Assembly: GCA_963205275.1 (NCBI GenBank)
Contig: CAUJIH010000097.1
Location: forward strand, 1 to 64,000
Source of the DNA: Verrucomicrobiota bacterium
GTDB taxonomy: Bacteria; Verrucomicrobiota; Verrucomicrobiia; Verrucomicrobiales; DEV007
Direction of reading: 5' to 3'
DNA: 64,000 bases
Both the position numbers and the translations under genes were made by a program. Positions 43,837-54,215 of the stretch are shown here, piece by piece. The number at the start of each line of letters is the position of its first letter. The first letter of the stretch is position 1. A model generated the notes under the pieces. That model ran no database searches. It had not been told where the DNA came from and saw nothing but the letters and a program-made list of their open reading frames with translations.

Positions 43837-43953
43837 GAGATTTTTATCCACGGATTTCACGGATGAACGCAGATTTTTTTAGACTCTTATCTGCGAAAAT
43901 CTGCGTAATCTGTGGATACCTAAAATCGCCTGCCCCTTTTCTGTGCGGTCTGC
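43837..43953. repeat. Dispersed hairpin repeat, copy 1
   Basis: A roughly 115-bp element built of an imperfect palindrome: ATCCACGGATTTCACGG on the left answers GTAATCTGTGGAT on the right, around a T-rich centre (ATTTTTTTAGACTC). It is followed by a conserved tail (AAAATCGCCTG..CCTTTTCTG). Copies 2 and 3 at 44.45 and 49.82 kb share stem, centre and tail. It ends three bases before the HicB stop codon. Confidence 0.85.
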
Positions 43954-43956
43954 TAT

Positions 43957-44163
43957 CTAAACAGTAACTAACTGAGTACCTACATACTCCGACTCCATTT
44001 CTGGCTCTCCATCTTCGAGAAGCATGGAGATGACCTCTTGAAGGTTGGCCCGCAATTCATCAAGGCTCTCTCCTTGAGTGTGAGATCCAGAGAATCTAGG
44101 CACAAAACCGACAAAAAGTCCGGTCTCGGGACATTTTTCGACGACGGCAGTAAAGGCTCTCAT
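43957..44163 (-). CDS. HicB-like antitoxin, orphan
   Basis: These 68 residues form a HicB-type partial RNase-H fold: FTAVVEKCPETGLFVGFVPRF then SHTQGESLDELRANLQEVI, which are the two family signature parts. HicB proteins neutralise HicA mRNA interferases and bind DNA. No hicA-like ORF is present on either side. An upstream AGGGGA supports the start. It stands between two copies of the hairpin repeat, so it may be a solitary leftover or act on a HicA elsewhere. Confidence 0.8.
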   Translation of the reverse strand: MRAFTAVVEKCPETGLFVGFVPRFSGSHTQGESLDELRANLQEVISMLLEDGEPEMESEYVGTQLVTV

Positions 44164-44446: not shown

Positions 44447-44550
44447 ACAGATTTCACAGATTTCACAGATTTTTTTAGACTCCTATCTGCGGAAATCTGT
44501 GTAATCTGTGGATCGATAAAATCGCCTGTCCTTTTTCTGCACCATTCTGC
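44447..44550. repeat. Dispersed hairpin repeat, copy 2
   Basis: Same family as copies 1 and 3: right arm ATCTGTGTAATCTGTGGAT, T-rich centre TTTTTTTAGACTCC and tail ATAAAATCGCCTGTCC. The left arm is shorter and carries a duplicated ATTTCACAG. It lies in an otherwise empty region (44164-44638) between the HicB gene and the regulator of the GTPase island; I see no gene there. Confidence 0.83.
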
Positions 44551-44638
44551 GGATGATGCATTCATTGCTCATCTTACGCTGATTTTAAGAGCAATATCGA
44601 ATATCTCACGCCTCGATAGTATATAGGGTGACTAGCCT

Positions 44639-45022
44639 CTACTCCGAGTCAGACTGATTTTCTGATTCAACAGGGTCTGGTTTGGCAGGTAACCCTGTCT
44701 GCTCGCTTTGGTAGGCCTGACGAACGAGGGACACGATCCAATCGGTTACGATTTGGCCTTCTGAGAGTGCCACGCGCGACCAAGCATCGAACTCTTTCGG
44801 ACTGATTTTTAGAACGATATGAGAGAGATCGAGCTTGCGAAGCTTTTTCTCATCAAGGCGCATCAGACCCTCGATAATCAGCAGCGCCTTGGCAGGGATG
44901 TCTATGCTGGAGGAGAGCCAGTTCGTGACCGTTTTCACGCTGACACCACACTCCTTCGCAAGCCAATCGCGCCCGCGTTTGGGATCGTCCACCCATGCCT
45001 TGATTACCTTCTTGTTGGGCAT
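44639..45022 (-). CDS. HTH repressor-like regulator of the GTPase island
   Basis: The 127-residue protein has a helix-turn-helix at about residues 16-37 (DWLAKECGVSVKTVTNWL) like Cro/CI-type repressors. Its second half, LKISPKEFDAWSRVALSE and VTDWIVSLVRQAY, resembles a ribbon-helix-helix-type segment. The tail is acidic and disordered. It faces a small plus-strand gene across 91 bases carrying three matching palindromes, so it most likely represses that promoter and its own. Related phage-like regulators are common, but no phage genes are nearby. Confidence 0.75.
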   Translation of the reverse strand: MPNKKVIKAWVDDPKRGRDWLAKECGVSVKTVTNWLSSSIDIPAKALLIIEGLMRLDEKKLRKLDLSHIVLKISPKEFDAWSRVALSEGQIVTDWIVSLVRQAYQSEQTGLPAKPDPVESENQSDSE

Positions 45023-45032
45023 GACAGAACTC

Positions 45033-45048
45033 TTCCCGATTTCGGGAA
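45033..45048. promoter_or_regulatory. Operator 1 of the divergent regulator region
   Basis: TTCCCGATTTCGGGAA is a palindrome with perfect seven-base arms around TT, ten bases from the repressor start codon. It shares the CCCGAtt core with two further sites in the same 91-base gap. Confidence 0.7.
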
Positions 45049-45063
45049 AAATGCAAGCTTTCT

Positions 45064-45075
45064 CCCGATTCCGGG
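45064..45075. promoter_or_regulatory. Operator 2 of the divergent regulator region
   Basis: CCCGATTCCGGG is the weakest of the three sites (one mismatch in the arms). It lies directly before the -35 element of the plus-strand promoter. Confidence 0.6.
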
Positions 45076-45103
45076 TTTACAATCCCGATTGTCGGGATAA
45101 TAT
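45076..45103 (+). promoter_or_regulatory. Promoter with embedded operator 3
   Basis: A TTTACA -35 and a TAATAT -10 are separated by 16 bases. Operator 3 (ATCCCGATTGTCGGGAT, 45082-45098, perfect seven-base arms around TTG) fills the spacer, so a repressor bound there would block RNA polymerase. The ATG of the small plus-strand gene follows about 10 bases downstream, so the transcript would be nearly leaderless. Confidence 0.65.
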
Positions 45104-45113
45104 CAAAACAACT

Positions 45114-45338
45114 ATGGAAACTGAATTGTTCGATTTGCCGATTCCCATGAAGGGACTCACGCCTCAGGAGATTGCCTGGATGGCGGTCAAGAGTTCAGAT
45201 TCTGGTAAAAGCACCAGCGAGGTGGTGCGGGATCTGGTGAGGCAAGAAGTCGCCCGCCTCGAATCCGAACAGGAGGCGGAGTCATCATCTGAGTCATCCG
45301 TAGCCGAATCACAGCCCGAATCGTGTCAAGATCAGTAG
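45114..45338 (+). CDS. Small RHH-like protein at the head of the GTPase island
   Basis: 74 residues from the ATG at 45114 (the track's ORF begins far upstream, across the operators). The core LTPQEIAWMAVKSSDSGKS and SEVVRDLVRQEVARLE follows a ribbon-helix-helix rhythm and resembles the second half of the divergent repressor. The tail is Glu/Ser/Gln-rich like the repressor's. It could be a second regulator or an antitoxin. The dynamin-like gene starts 107 bases later on the same strand and may share its transcript. Confidence 0.65.
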   Translation: METELFDLPIPMKGLTPQEIAWMAVKSSDSGKSTSEVVRDLVRQEVARLESEQEAESSSESSVAESQPESCQDQ

Positions 45339-45445
45339 CCGACGAAGGGCTGAATCAGCCAATACCACGCGGAAATCGCTGAGAACGACAGCCGTTTTCC
45401 CAATCTTTATTTTTACAAACTCTTTAGACAAAAAATCGCTCACCC

Positions 45446-47617
45446 ATGAGTCGCACCCATACCATACAAGCCATCATCGACGCACGCCAACCCATGGCGA
45501 AAAAGGCAGCCGAAGCCGACAAGGCACTCTACCAAATCGAAGGAGAAATCCGAAAGTTCAAGGAATTCATCCCTCGTTTCACAGAGAATCTCGATCCGGA
45601 AGCCGTAGCAGAACTCAAGGCTCTCTATCCCGCCATCGACCAATTGCTGACTCGACTGTCGGAAGAAAAAGAGAGAATCGGCCTGCTCGCCCAACGCTTT
45701 TCCCGCAGAACGTTGAATATCGGTGTCGTCGGCCCTGCCAGAAACGGAAAAAGCACCCTGCTCCAACAAATCACCGGATTGACGCCCGAGGAAATCCCTT
45801 CGGGCAACAAAGGGCACCTCACAGGAGCGCCTTCTTTCATCTATCACCGGGATTCGGACATCACAGAAGGGGAATTGCACTTCTTCACCGAATCCGAGTT
45901 TCTCAAGGATGTCGTCGCACCTTATTATCGTGAACTCAATTGGCTGGGGAGTGCGCCGTCTAGTCTGGATGCCTTTCGGCGCGCAAATTTGGTGAACGAA
46001 GCGGGAAACGATGCCACCAAGAGCAAGATTTTCGAAAAATTATTGGAAACTCGAGATGCCCTCGACTCTTTTCGGCAATACTTCGGACAAGGTCAAAAAG
46101 TCATTCCAAAGGAGGAAATTCGCGAATGGATCGCCCAAGAAGGCGTCGCCGAACCTGGTCAAGCACCGCCAAAACTTCACAAATGGCGTGCAGTGAAATA
46201 TGCGAATATCCACTGCCGCTTCAGCCAAGAAGATGTGGGGAACATTTCTGTTTCAGACACCCCCGGCCTAGGTGACTTCATCAGCGGTGCCGAGGAGCGG
46301 CTCGCCGAGATGGTGGGGCGTGATTTGGACGCAGCACTATTCGTCAGAATGCCCAGTCCACATGGTCCCATTGTCTCACCCCCTGATACCAACCTTTATA
46401 CCCTGATCTCAAAGGCGATCACCGAGTTGACGCCCAAGGACTGGACCTATTATATCATCAACAAGACGGCGGAAAACGCAGGGAATCTCGATCACTTCGA
46501 GGCTGATTTACAAGATAAACGCATCCATACCAGAACTCGTCACCGCGTCGATTGCTCGAACACTGGTGAAACCCTGACGGCACTCGATGAAATCCTGAGC
46601 GACATCGCCAGCAATTTGGGCACACTCGACCAGCGGCTCTTCAAGCTTCGCATGGATAGGCTAGGGGAGCTGAAGACCGAGATCCTTTCGCTCGCTGAAC
46701 GGGCGACAAGGGTCCTGCCCAAAGCAGGCAAGCTCCAGCCAGATGAGGCCCTTTTCGATAAGCTCTTTGACGAGGCATGGCTCAACTTGGGACTCAAATC
46801 AAAACAACAGGTCGATGTCCTCCGCGAAAAGAGGAATCTTGATGAACCTCGTTTTCTCGCGGCTCTGGAGGAGGTTTTCAGTACCTTAGAAAAAGGCCCC
46901 GATCTGCCGGACGAACAGGAGGTCAATAGACAATCCGCCGCCCAGGGGCTGATGCACTGGCACGCCCATAAGATGAACGAACTGCGCGCCGAGATCGCTC
47001 GTGCGTTTCAATCGATCGACAAGGTCCTACAGGCTTTGTTTGACGAAATGCGCGAGAACGCGCTCGATGCCCTACACGCTGAGGACGGTGGAAAACTAGC
47101 TCGTTTGTCCAATGGCGATGATCCGTGGGAAGCCTTGAAGCGCTCTTGGGAGGGATTGGAACAAGGTGACACGATGATAGAGGCCATCGACATGCTGCTG
47201 ACCTCCGGGTTGTCATTTCGAGGATTCATCCAGCCGAGAGTGCGCACAAGTCTCGACGTGCTAGACCCCGATATGCCGGAGTCGAAACACTACCATCACT
47301 CATCAGCTGACAAACCAATCGACTCAATCGAGAAGCTGGAACTCGCCTGGCGCAGTGCTGTGTCTAGCTGCGAAGGAGTAATCAAAGAGATGGCAGCCGA
47401 ACCCAGCATGGCTCTATTCGCCGCCGCCGCCGATTTTCGAGGCGCTATCCTCCATACGCGCGGGGACAGGGCCCGAGATGCTTGGAAATTATTTTATCGC
47501 CAGAATAGAGCCGATGTCTGGGAGGAAGAATTCACCCAACTGGAGGCCGACAGTCGTCGGCGTCGTGAGTGGGAAAATGCAGTGAAACAATTGCAAGCAT
47601 CTGCCTCGGTATTTTGA
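45446..47617 (+). CDS. Dynamin-like large GTPase
   Basis: The 723-residue protein has an N-terminal helical region, a GTPase domain with P-loop GPARNGKSTLL (about residue 96), G3 SVSDTPGLGDF (about 270) and a G4-like INKTAENAGN (about 338), and then ~350 residues of mainly helical sequence that fits a dynamin-type stalk. The insertion of about 130 residues between switch I and G3 is longer than usual. No membrane segment is evident. Bacterial dynamins bind membranes in repair, vesicle or phage-defence roles. It is followed after 43 bases by another GTPase gene, so a joint GTPase machine is likely. Confidence 0.8.
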   Translation: MSRTHTIQAIIDARQPMAKKAAEADKALYQIEGEIRKFKEFIPRFTENLDPEAVAELKALYPAIDQLLTRLSEEKERIGLLAQRFSRRTLNIGVVGPARNGKSTLLQQITGLTPEEIPSGNKGHLTGAPSFIYHRDSDITEGELHFFTESEFLKDVVAPYYRELNWLGSAPSSLDAFRRANLVNEAGNDATKSKIFEKLLETRDALDSFRQYFGQGQKVIPKEEIREWIAQEGVAEPGQAPPKLHKWRAVKYANIHCRFSQEDVGNISVSDTPGLGDFISGAEERLAEMVGRDLDAALFVRMPSPHGPIVSPPDTNLYTLISKAITELTPKDWTYYIINKTAENAGNLDHFEADLQDKRIHTRTRHRVDCSNTGETLTALDEILSDIASNLGTLDQRLFKLRMDRLGELKTEILSLAERATRVLPKAGKLQPDEALFDKLFDEAWLNLGLKSKQQVDVLREKRNLDEPRFLAALEEVFSTLEKGPDLPDEQEVNRQSAAQGLMHWHAHKMNELRAEIARAFQSIDKVLQALFDEMRENALDALHAEDGGKLARLSNGDDPWEALKRSWEGLEQGDTMIEAIDMLLTSGLSFRGFIQPRVRTSLDVLDPDMPESKHYHHSSADKPIDSIEKLELAWRSAVSSCEGVIKEMAAEPSMALFAAAADFRGAILHTRGDRARDAWKLFYRQNRADVWEEEFTQLEADSRRRREWENAVKQLQASASVF

Positions 47618-47660: not shown

Positions 47661-48659
47661 ATGAGCATACCTGTGATAAAGATTGCCATGGTCGGCCCAC
47701 GCGGAGTCGGCAAGACTAGCCTGCTCGCCGCGATGTATGCGGAACTGAAAAACGAGCTGTTGGATATCGGATGTTCTTTCTTGATGGAGAGGGGACCCAC
47801 ACAAGTCGCGATCAATACTCGCTTGCGGGAGCTAAAGCAGGTTGCTTTTGCTACTGGTGCGAAAATCCAGATAGGCGAAGGAATCAGCGCCAGCTCGCAG
47901 GAGGAGACATTCACCTTCCATCTAGAAGTGGGCGATGGAGGGGAAGCGGAGGCAAGCTTGCAGTTCACCGACCTGCCTGGAGGGTGGTACACCGGAACGG
48001 GGAACTTCGAGAAGGCGGATCAAATTCTGGCTGAGTCCGCTGTGTCCTTTCTAGCCGTGGATGCCACGGCCCTCATGGAATCACCTTCAAAGATGTATGA
48101 TGGTCTTGGTAAATATCACCAAGAGATCAATGCTCCGGATTTCATCCAAGACGCTTATGAGAGAGTAACCTTTACGAATCCTCACTCGGTAGTTCTTACC
48201 TTGATCCGAGCAGAGACCTATATCGACAAGGGCAGGGTGGACGAATTGATATTAAAAACGCGTCAGGCATATACCAGCTTGGCAAAAATGCTTGCATGCA
48301 AAGGAATCTCCCTCTGTGGATGTTACGTGGAAACCGTGGGTTCCCTTTATTTCAATGCCTTTACAAAAAGCGATGGAGTCATTTCTACTGAGTTTATCCG
48401 AGATCCAAACAAGGGATATAAACCAACCCGCTGCGCCGTCCCCTTGAGAATCGCTGTGCACGGAGCGTTCCAATCCGCCAAGGACCAGGCGAGTGAGGAT
48501 GTAGAAAGAAATGACATATTGATCTATAATATCCTCACCGATTTATTAGGCTTCAACACTCCTCTCAAGCAAGCGCGGGAAAAGGAATCGCTGGTAGTCC
48601 AAGTATTCGACTCCATCGCTCAAAAAACGAGAGGCGACGACTATTTCGATCTCCTATGA
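47661..48659 (+). CDS. Second P-loop GTPase (TRAFAC, 'DO-GTPase'-like)
   Basis: The 332-residue protein starts with a P-loop MVGPRGVGKTSLLAAMYAEL (residues ~10-29) and has a G3-type FTDLPGGWY (~102-110) followed by SFLAVDATALME, as in small TRAFAC GTPases. The 'GPRGVGKTSLLAAMY' form is what I recall from the DO-GTPase group found in predicted bacterial conflict systems. No transmembrane segment is seen. Its stop overlaps the next gene's ATG (ATGA), so the third protein is made in step with it. A clear NKxD motif is not visible; LIRAETY may take that place. Confidence 0.7.
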   Translation: MSIPVIKIAMVGPRGVGKTSLLAAMYAELKNELLDIGCSFLMERGPTQVAINTRLRELKQVAFATGAKIQIGEGISASSQEETFTFHLEVGDGGEAEASLQFTDLPGGWYTGTGNFEKADQILAESAVSFLAVDATALMESPSKMYDGLGKYHQEINAPDFIQDAYERVTFTNPHSVVLTLIRAETYIDKGRVDELILKTRQAYTSLAKMLACKGISLCGCYVETVGSLYFNAFTKSDGVISTEFIRDPNKGYKPTRCAVPLRIAVHGAFQSAKDQASEDVERNDILIYNILTDLLGFNTPLKQAREKESLVVQVFDSIAQKTRGDDYFDLL

Positions 48660-49762
48660 AAACTGGCATTAAAACTTCAGGGCGAGCTTCGCAATCTGAC
48701 TATACTTGGAAAAGCAATGATTCAGGGAGTGCGGACAGCTTTTACGATCTGGAAAACCAGGTGGGACAAGATCATGGCTGTGTGATCGTGCACGGCGACG
48801 ACGATCTTTTCCAAGCCTGTTTCGCGGGATTTCGCACCGACTTACATGATTATCGACAGCGAAATATCGGCGTCTCGGTGGCTTTTTTGGAAATCTCCCA
48901 GGTGCAGGCTCGTGCCTTGACTCTCTTATTTTTAGAAAAATACGAGGAGTTTAGCCGCCGACTACTGGATGCAGTGGAGCGCTGGGTCCCGACCGATGTG
49001 CCGCCTGCGGAACAGGGAGCCTCCGTCGGTGAATGGCGCTATGACGGGAAAAAATTGATCGCTCTAGTCGAGGAAGCCGTCAAGCAAGCAAATCTCGCTC
49101 CTAGCTCGTCTGAGTCCACCGAAGCAAATCCGTTCGCCACCCCTCGCAGCTTTGACTATGACGCCAAGGCCAAGGTCGGGGAGTCAGCCCACACAAAGAG
49201 CCAGAGGAGCGTCAAAATGCTCTGTGAGGAACTTCGGAAATATGACTTTTCTAGCGGTGCAGGCTTGAAGCTCCTCCTAGCAAGCGCGCCGCCGCAGGCA
49301 GGATACGAAAAAGCTCTCCGGGAAGCCGACCGTCTGCTCTGGGCCGAAGGGTCGCAAGATGATCTGGTAGCATATCGCAAAAAAAAACAGACTTGGAAGA
49401 CGAACAATACACTGTCTACAATATTAGCGATGCTATCGAGAGATGCTTCCTATCGTGGTTTTGGGACACGATTGATAAAGCGCCTGGTTTTGGAAGAGTC
49501 GCCAAACTCCTCGAACCACACATACAGAGTTTCTCCCAAAAAGTTATCGATTATCTGCGTAGTCATCGCGGTGAGTAGTATTCTAATCTGGGCGACAAGG
49601 GATAAAGGAGACGAACCCGTTTCTACCAGTGATACTGGAGGAGAACTCGAATCCCCTGATACACCGCAAAACACTGACGGGAAAGAGGAATCTGAGTATC
49701 CCAAGCCCGCTCCTGACCCCAAAGCTGAGAAGCCTGTTCCTAAGCCTAATGACTCTATGTGA
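48656..49762 (+). CDS. Membrane-anchored protein of unknown family in the GTPase operon
   Basis: The ATG overlaps the preceding GTPase by four bases. The 368 residues divide into a region with a strand-helix pattern (GCVIVHGDDDLFQAC then a long helix to about residue 110), a Ser/Thr linker, a helical region (about 180-270), one membrane helix (LSIICVVIAVSSILIWA, about 297-313) and a Pro/Glu/Lys-rich tail, with most of the protein before the helix and so probably in the cytoplasm. I recognise no family. The coupling marks it as a partner, maybe a GTPase-activating or helical adaptor protein as in other GTPase systems; that is speculation. Confidence 0.6.
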   Translation: MKTGIKTSGRASQSDYTWKSNDSGSADSFYDLENQVGQDHGCVIVHGDDDLFQACFAGFRTDLHDYRQRNIGVSVAFLEISQVQARALTLLFLEKYEEFSRRLLDAVERWVPTDVPPAEQGASVGEWRYDGKKLIALVEEAVKQANLAPSSSESTEANPFATPRSFDYDAKAKVGESAHTKSQRSVKMLCEELRKYDFSSGAGLKLLLASAPPQAGYEKALREADRLLWAEGSQDDLVAYRKKKQTWKTNNTLSTILAMLSRDASYRGFGTRLIKRLVLEESPNSSNHTYRVSPKKLSIICVVIAVSSILIWATRDKGDEPVSTSDTGGELESPDTPQNTDGKEESEYPKPAPDPKAEKPVPKPNDSM

Positions 49763-49815: not shown

Positions 49816-49930
49816 GAGATTTTTCTCCACAGATTTCGCGGATGAACGCAGATTTTTTTGATTCTTATCTGCGTAAATCTGTGTAATCTGTGGATCGACA
49901 AAATAGCCTATCCCTTTTCTGTCCTTCTGC
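49816..49930. repeat. Dispersed hairpin repeat, copy 3
   Basis: Closest to copy 1: the left arm CTCCACAGATTTCGCGGAT and right arm GTGTAATCTGTGGAT pair around TTTTTTTGATTCTT, and the tail CCTATCCCTTTTCTG is kept. It lies about 55 bases after the last gene of the GTPase operon, so copies 2 and 3 flank the island. Confidence 0.85.
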
Positions 49931-50164
49931 CGGGACTCTATCGAGATTCACCTCCGCTCCGAATTCGCTGTGGGCTGGCAGGGGGGGCATTTTTCGCTCC
50001 TTCAAGAATTTTGAGATCAGGCTCGGATTAAGCAGTGCATGTGTCGCGATTCTCTGATCAGCTCTGCTTTGGTTCCCTCGCGGGATACGGGCAAACAACC
50101 TGTTCCTGTTGTGGTAAGAAATAGCCTGTCCTTGTAAATTCTATAAATTTTTGTGTGAAGTCCA

Positions 50165-52520: not shown

Positions 52521-54215
52521 TCATTGTGGGAGTGAGAAGTGGGAGTTAAGTTCGACGACGCGGCTGTGAATGTCGTCGAGGCGAGCCGGATCGTTCCGGT
52601 GGGTGATCGCCTCATGAATGAGGTCGCCGATCTGGTCCATCTCCGCTTCTTTCATTCCGCGCGTGGTGACAGCGGGTGTTCCAATGCGAATTCCCCCACC
52701 TTTGAAGGGGCTTTCGGTATCGAAGGGGATCGTGTTTTTATTCACTGTGATTCCCGCCTTATCGAGGGCTTCTTGAACGATCTTCCCATTCAGCCCGTTC
52801 GGGCGCAGGTCGATCAGGAAAAGGTGATTATCGGTGCCGCCAGAGATAATGCGGTAGCCATGCCCGGCCATGCGTGCAGCGAGGCGAGCAGCGTTTTTCA
52901 CAATCTGTTGCTGATAGGCTTGGAAGCTAGGCTGGAGAGCCTCGTGAAAGCAAACCGCTTTCGCTGCGATCACGTGCATCAGCGGGCCCCCCTGGATTCC
53001 AGGAAAGGTGAGTGAGTCGATCTTCTTCGCGAGTTCTTCGTCATTGGTCAGGATGAGTCCACCACGCGGGCCTCTCAGGCTCTTGTGTGTAGTCGTGGTT
53101 ACGAAGTGTGCGTGCTCCATGGGGGAAGGATGAACCCCGGCCGCGACCAATCCGGCGATGTGGGCCATATCGACGAAGAGCCAAGCTCCGACTGAGTCAG
53201 CGATCTCGCGCATGCGCTTGAAGTCAATGATGCGCGAGTAGGCCGAAGCTCCTGCTGTGATCATCTTGGGGCGGAACTCTAGAGCGACTTCAGCGAGGGC
53301 GTCGTAATCGATCATTTCGGTCTCGTGGGAGACGCCGTAGTGTTTCACTTCATAGAGTTTTCCCGAGAAGTTGGCCGGGTGCCCGTGCGTGAGGTGGCCA
53401 CCGTGGGAGAGATCCATCGTGAGAATGCGATCTCCGGGCTGGAGGACGCTAAAATAAACCGCACAGTTGGCCTGAGAGCCGGAGTGAGGTTGTACATTGG
53501 CGTAATTCGCGTTGAAAATTCGTTTTGCTCGTTCAATTGCAAGAGATTCGGCCGTATCGACGTTCTCACATCCGCCATACCAGCGGCGTCCGGGATAGCC
53601 TTCCGCGTATTTATTGGTGAGACAGCTTCCCTGTGCCTCCTGAATCGCACGAGATGCGAAATTCTCTGAGGCGATCAGCTCGATATTGCCGCTCTGTCGC
53701 TTTTCTTCTTCCTCGATCACTTCGTAGATCTCCGGATCGGTGATGGCGAGATGAGGCGCTCTTGTGGCGTAGCCGCAGGCATTCATTTTCCCGACGCGTC
53801 GTCCGTGGCGACCGTCGTCTTCGAAGGCTGCTCCGAGCCAAGCCTCGAGAATAGGACCCACTTCTTCGTTCGGCGTGAACTCACCGGCGAGGCAGAGCAC
53901 GTTTGTATTATTGTGGATACGTGTTTTGGCCGCCACATGAGGATCTGTGACGACAGCCGCTTGGATGTCCGAAAAGCGATTCGCAGCGATCGCCATGCCG
54001 ATTCCCGTCGTGCAGCAGAGGATCCCCAGATCGTGCTTTCCAGTGAGGACGGCCTCGGCGACGGTTCGAGCATAGTCGGGGTAATCGACCGGATCTTTCG
54101 AGTAGCAGCCGATGTCTTCGACCTCGTAGCCCTGTTCTTTGAGCCAGGCGAGGGCTGCTTCTTTGATGTCATATCCACCGTGATCGGTGCCGATGATGAG
54201 AGTGGGCTTATCCAT
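52521..54215 (-). CDS. rpiB-glyA: Fused ribose 5-phosphate isomerase B - serine hydroxymethyltransferase
   Basis: Residues 1-~140 are Rpi[25 protein letters not shown], and the catalytic-cysteine loop [15 protein letters not shown] with [12 protein letters not shown]. Residues ~158-564 are a full Gly[36 protein letters not shown] and the PLP lysine in [14 protein letters not shown]. The junction is a short linker ([16 protein letters not shown]), and an internal ATG at 53786 could also start GlyA alone. The two activities are isomerisation of ribulose 5-phosphate and serine/glycine C1 transfer. The neighbouring phosphatase gives the order found unfused in Bacillus (ywlE-ywlF...glyA). No frameshift or stop separates them. 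Confidence 0.9.

Follow-up and report, generated by a model that had tools for sequence, protein, structure and literature searches.

Three palindromes in a divergent intergenic gap

The window, by which we mean the whole 64-kb stretch of DNA that was analysed, contains a 91-bp intergenic gap (45023-45113) that separates a minus-strand gene for a putative repressor of 127 aa (44639-45022) from a plus-strand gene for a ribbon-helix-helix (RHH)-like protein of 74 aa (45114-45338), and the latter is followed on the same strand by a putative operon of three genes, two of them for GTPases. The gap holds three palindromes, designated here as candidate operators O1, O2 and O3. O1 (45033-45048, TTCCCGATTTCGGGAA) has perfect 7-bp arms around a 2-bp centre, O2 (45064-45075, CCCGATTCCGGG) is imperfect, with one mismatch in its 5-bp arms, and O3 (45082-45098, ATCCCGATTGTCGGGAT) has perfect 7-bp arms around a 3-bp centre; measured from centre to centre, the spacings are ~29 and ~20 bp. 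The positions and letters given for the three palindromes in the original prediction were exact. Its description of the sites as graded holds at the level of sequence only, with O1 and O3 as full dyads and O2 as an imperfect one.

The palindrome-family score of the gap (5-bp arms) was 29, compared with a maximum of 19 in 500 dinucleotide shuffles, and was unmatched by every other 91-bp segment of the window, while in a stricter repeat test 0-1 of 200 shuffles were as good. Lone CCCGA-N0-6-TCGGG palindromes are not rare (2 found by pattern scan, 0.9 expected), and the exceptional feature is the intergenic triplet, not the single CCCGA palindrome. The chance occurrence of such single copies in the genome could suggest that the palindromes are accidental, or that they serve a structural purpose, for instance as a terminator or an attenuator. 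However, the triplet scores above every shuffle, the gaps of homologues carry differing sequences at the same places, and no terminator-like site was detected; chance and a terminator were rejected on the shuffles and on this last result, and the explanation as a whole is largely refuted, with hardly any probability left to it. A palindrome regulon was also considered and rejected, since each of the genome's other 12 copies of CCCGATTN1-3CGGG occurs alone and within an ORF of 90 aa or more; for the same reason the sites in the gap appear to be local.

The promoter predicted for the RHH gene (45076-45103, plus strand, TTTACA-N16-TAATAT) is the sole promoter-like site detected on that strand within 44500-45600, and O3 fills its spacer, as had been predicted, the spacer length of 16 bp being confirmed. 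The best pair on the minus strand, TTGCAT-N16-AAGAGT (45029-45056), is the predicted repressor promoter and has O1 as its spacer, so that the earlier placement of O1 at the repressor start is now refined to the spacer of a weaker, repressor-facing promoter; O2 lies between the two promoters. The -10 element of the repressor promoter (AAGAGT) is weak and ends 6 nt ahead of the ATG, an arrangement of the leaderless type. A spacing of 5-8 nt between the -10 element and the ATG recurs in 19 of 36 homologue clusters, compared with 5.2 in shuffles, and because of this recurrence a leaderless repressor message seems to be a feature of this HTH-RHH repressor family. In many relatives, too, O1 and O3 sit in promoter spacers. 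The three operators overlap both of the predicted divergent promoters, in the manner of a lambda-type CI/Cro switch.

The putative repressor and its small partner

The 127-aa protein appears to consist of a YdaS/P22-c2-like HTH (residues ~1-58) and an RHH-like C-terminal tail (~68-110). It matched Pfam YdaS_toxin below the cut-off (E=1.2e-4), and a profile of the repressor family matched the XRE HTH 3bs3 at its N terminus and, weakly, the RHH proteins ParG and HP0222 at its C terminus; in the family alignment W10, R18, W20 and W35 are invariant or nearly so. In the AlphaFold2 model the HTH (pLDDT 80-90) is followed by two less certain helices. The fold of this HTH resembles that of P22 c2, since a Foldseek search with the model returned P22 c2, HipB and Aca1 at probabilities of 0.9-0.98 (0.97-0.98 for P22 c2 and Aca1), with E-values that are non-significant when taken alone (best 0.2). 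The tail is probably a ribbon-helix-helix. The S24 domain is of the LexA/CI type, and Pfam detected none in the 127-aa protein, which in this respect does not have the makings of the self-cleaving, SOS-inducible repressor of a lambda-type switch.

The 74-aa protein occupies the position of Cro. It matched Pfam RHH_1 below the cut-off (E=0.019), and a profile of the partner family gave weak matches to CopG and VapB26 and resembled the repressor tail in a profile comparison (E=0.002, at a probability of only 13%); a Foldseek search with the model of the 74-aa protein gave no useful match. The RHH assignments of the repressor tail and of the 74-aa protein are thus to be taken as likely rather than proven. 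Small RHH-like genes lie divergently from most homologous repressors, phage ones included, and the window shares this trait of the Akkermansia-phage family insofar as its own weak RHH assignment holds.

RHH folds are common in antitoxins, the searches gave weak RelB-like and MazE/VapB matches, and the Pfam family of the HTH is itself named 'YdaS toxin', all of which would fit a toxin-antitoxin or similar autoregulated module with the RHH protein as the antitoxin. We consider such a module highly improbable, as no toxin family was recognised in the pair or its neighbours with Pfam, NCBIfam or PADLOC, the phage homologues are S24 repressors in the immunity position, and the standing of YdaS/YdaT as toxins is disputed in passages of a 2018 letter (PMC5917428).

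Relatives in the Verrucomicrobiales and their phages

Among 387 Verrucomicrobiales genomes, 96 have homologues of the HTH, some of them with up to ten copies, and homologous pairs recur across the Verrucomicrobiales and in Akkermansia phages. When the window repressor was compared with 50,697 phage records, matches at E<=0.01 were obtained only in the Akkermansia phages Chambord (2e-8 by tblastn) and Chantilly, in which the matching genes are annotated as transcriptional repressor; the phage Moulinsart was reached via another family member. A scan with the Chambord repressor revealed relatives on 19 IMG/VR contigs, and viral-contig scans with the window repressor, with A1 and with the L047 protein gave no matches. 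Several of the homologues carry a C-terminal Peptidase_S24 domain, and among the Akkermansia-phage relatives most repressors do.

The upstream regions of 38 non-redundant homologue clusters were analysed with a repeated 15-mer, three-site test; strict-palindrome scoring had overlooked the Chambord and Chantilly arrays, which are imperfect, and was replaced by this repeat-triplet test. Repeated sites were found at p<=0.05 in 12 of the 38 clusters, whereas of 75 control segments taken from these loci only 1 reached that level (Mann-Whitney p=1.6e-4), and 26 clusters failed the three-site test. Many homologous pairs have two or three palindromes of other letters at the same positions of the gap: TTTGCAAATTGCATT is present three times in L029, CCTGATTTCAGG, which is near the window's sites in sequence, three times in L082, CAGCATTTTGCTG three times in L153, and GTTGATATT three times in L095, a member of the Chambord group. 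The search for palindromes upstream of homologues, proposed as a check of the original prediction, accordingly turned up repeats that are placed alike but differ in their letters. In a set of 14 phage repressors whose S24 domains are similar (91 non-independent pairs), identity in the recognition helix correlated with identity in the O1 spacer (rho 0.67), whereas identity in the S24 domain did not (rho 0.01), and such covariation is expected of operators that are bound by the recognition helix.

On this evidence the three palindromes are very likely operators of the 44639-45022 protein, and we have good confidence that the pair and the gap together constitute a divergent switch of the phage type. 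The phage homology of the repressor, the operators of its relatives and the helix covariation give good support to the words 'phage-type switch' as originally applied to the operators.

Two further observations were made on the relatives. The Akkermansia phage repressors L149-L162 look mosaic, the HTH and the operators co-varying while the S24 half is nearly constant, as if immunity specificity had been exchanged among them. In addition, many Akkermansia-like genomes (L042, L046 and L048-L054) share an orphan repressor that is nearly identical between them and has TTTTC..GAAAA palindromes upstream but no clear RHH partner.

The window has in common with the immunity regions of Chambord, Chantilly and their IMG/VR relatives a homologous HTH, a small divergent RHH-like partner and repeated operators, two or three of which in the gap are a trait of that family; several of these regions also have O1 and O3 in promoter spacers and a repressor promoter of the leaderless type. 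For Chantilly and Moulinsart the tests applied showed a weak operator array or none. The phage repressors differ from that of the window in having a C-terminal S24 domain and in facing phage early genes, where the window repressor faces GTPases. The CI-Cro regions of lambda, P22 and phi11 likewise have divergent regulators on either side of three homologous operators, and for the last of these, a phage of S. aureus, passages of PMC3991615 describe three operators between divergent repressors. In contrast to these three, the Cro position in the window is held by an RHH-like protein and not by an HTH protein, and the repressor has no cleavable domain.

The window repressor is a short form, and short forms without S24 occur in other genomes as well. 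One such pair (L105) belongs to an element with a Toprim primase and an HTH_17 excisionase-like gene, and another (L107) to an element with an integrase and a Toprim primase; both are candidate phage satellites of Akkermansia-like genomes. The Stl repressors of SaPI-type satellites are comparable in that they too are short and lack S24, and in that the short-form relatives of the window repressor reside in elements with an integrase and a primase; the likeness lies in form and setting, and no integrase or primase was seen beside the window pair. Because a reading by eye of the genes that can be recognised at 41-56 kb of the window revealed no mobility genes of these two kinds, the switch of the window may have been separated from such genes or may be a remnant. 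GC content gave no island signal, and eight relatives in the genus shared no neighbours when island boundaries were sought from the EF-G neighbours.

A limited literature search found no description of this HTH-RHH family. A repressor of this build opposite a small RHH-like partner, with two or three operators that track the recognition helix, would represent an immunity-switch family of the Verrucomicrobiales, Akkermansia phages included. Since the operator letters of a homologue could be predicted from its gap, the immunity groups of gut Akkermansia phages would become testable.

The downstream GTPase genes and the reach of the switch

The putative target operon begins 107 bp after the RHH gene with a gene for a dynamin-like GTPase of 723 aa (45446-47617, plus strand; Dynamin_N E=0.0011, below the cut-off), followed on the same strand by a Double-GTPase 2 (DO-GTPase2, PF19993; 47661-48659), which scored 35.4 bits against a cut-off of 27, and by a third gene (48656-49762). 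The product of the third gene had no Pfam, NCBIfam or PADLOC family match, though by eye it is like the proteins that follow DO-GTPase2 in homologous operons and could still be a distant GAP1. DO-GTPases are part of predicted conflict systems (Kaur et al., 2020, PMC7159879), which the window resembles in its DO-GTPase2 above the Pfam cut-off and the adjoining second GTPase, and from which it differs in that GAP1, GASH and FNIII were not recognised and the first GTPase is dynamin-like. Both GTPases are conserved together in homologous operons of six other genomes (G243, G296, G291, G097, G317 and G498), and a scan of named genomes with the 723-aa GTPase gave no matches. As for the make-up of these operons elsewhere, three homologous ones (L070, L071 and L073) start with a conserved extra gene, the product of which has an LRAT domain (PF04970) in L070, and in some operons DO-GTPase2 and the third gene are present in duplicate.

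The order of the genes, together with the 107-bp interval, in which neither a terminator nor a second promoter was detected, makes control of the GTPases by the switch plausible and no more, and on balance we lean towards such control. The link is a single case, because in none of the six homologous GTPase operons does a divergent switch pair adjoin; in G291 an orphan HTH relative lies ~1.1 kb upstream, with no significant operator array. Conversely, no other repressor-RHH pair examined precedes GTPases of this kind. The statement that the island of GTPases stays silent until the repressor is removed by a signal is not supported: the repressor has no S24 domain, and six GTPase operons exist without the switch. 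It had also been stated that a lack of the sites in homologous islands would refute the prediction; this lack was observed and speaks against the claim about the island, though not against the claim that the sites are operators.

The best explanation of the locus as a whole is a phage-type operator switch that probably gates the GTPases, to which we assign a probability of about 0.6; in its likeliest form this would be a short-form, satellite-like, autoregulating switch that probably drives the GTPase operon. We infer that a dimer of the 44639-45022 protein would bind each palindrome through its P22-c2-like HTH. Binding at O1 would repress the protein's own leaderless promoter, or tune it at partial occupancy, while binding at O3, inside the TTTACA/TAATAT spacer, would obstruct RNA polymerase at the RHH-gene promoter, and O2, between the two, could support cooperative binding. 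The RHH-like protein, which stands where Cro would be, probably counteracts the repressor, whether by acting on the same DNA or by forming a pair with the RHH-like tail of the repressor. The plus-strand transcript probably extends into the three genes of the GTPase operon, and the switch would thereby gate the GTPases. As the repressor is without S24, its release would be expected to come from another protein, in the manner of Stl, and not from self-cleavage.

It is possible, if rather doubtful, that a true phage-type switch at this locus has no targets beyond itself and the RHH gene, and is the remnant of a mobile element beside a GTPase operon that is expressed independently. Six homologous GTPase operons manage without the switch, homologous pairs elsewhere precede unrelated genes, some of them in elements with an integrase and a Toprim primase, and dispersed repeats lie on both sides of the block. 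The co-directional genes and the 107-bp gap in which no terminator or second promoter was found are harder to reconcile with a remnant, however, as is the fact that repressor, partner and operators are all intact.

A more far-reaching variant of the gated operon is that a chromosomal double-GTPase conflict operon captured a Verrucomicrobial phage or satellite switch, with the S24-less repressor acting as a Stl-like sensor of infection, so that a protein of an incoming phage would lift repression and turn the GTPases on. The inducer would then be an antirepressor, or an RHH/Cro equivalent that pairs with the RHH-like tail of the repressor. We regard this variant as unlikely. Passages of PMC9122588, PMC9122601, PMC12255303 and PMC13373217 describe CapW, BrxR, RptR and CapK/CapS as dedicated repressors of defence operons, and the window would resemble the systems so described in that a conflict- or defence-type operon is preceded by its own dedicated repressor. 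As far as those passages go, CapW and BrxR are WYL-domain proteins, RptR belongs to a novel family and CapK/CapS is kinase-controlled, whereas the window has a phage-type HTH-RHH protein with a divergent RHH partner. If the window switch does drive the GTPases, it would add to the ways in which a conflict operon is kept off.

Some other features of the surroundings were recorded. A dispersed, hairpin-like repeat of ~100 bp (ATCCACAGATTT...AATCTGTGGAT) is present at 43841-43944, 44447-44539 and 49820-49935, so that its copies flank the switch and the GTPase block, and many more occur elsewhere in the genome. At 43957-44163 a HicB-like protein of 68 aa is encoded, with no HicA partner noticed nearby. 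Further downstream, an ORF of 564 aa (52521-54215) appears by eye to be a fusion of an RpiB-like sugar isomerase with a serine hydroxymethyltransferase, and a similar ORF, alike at its start, is found in L104.
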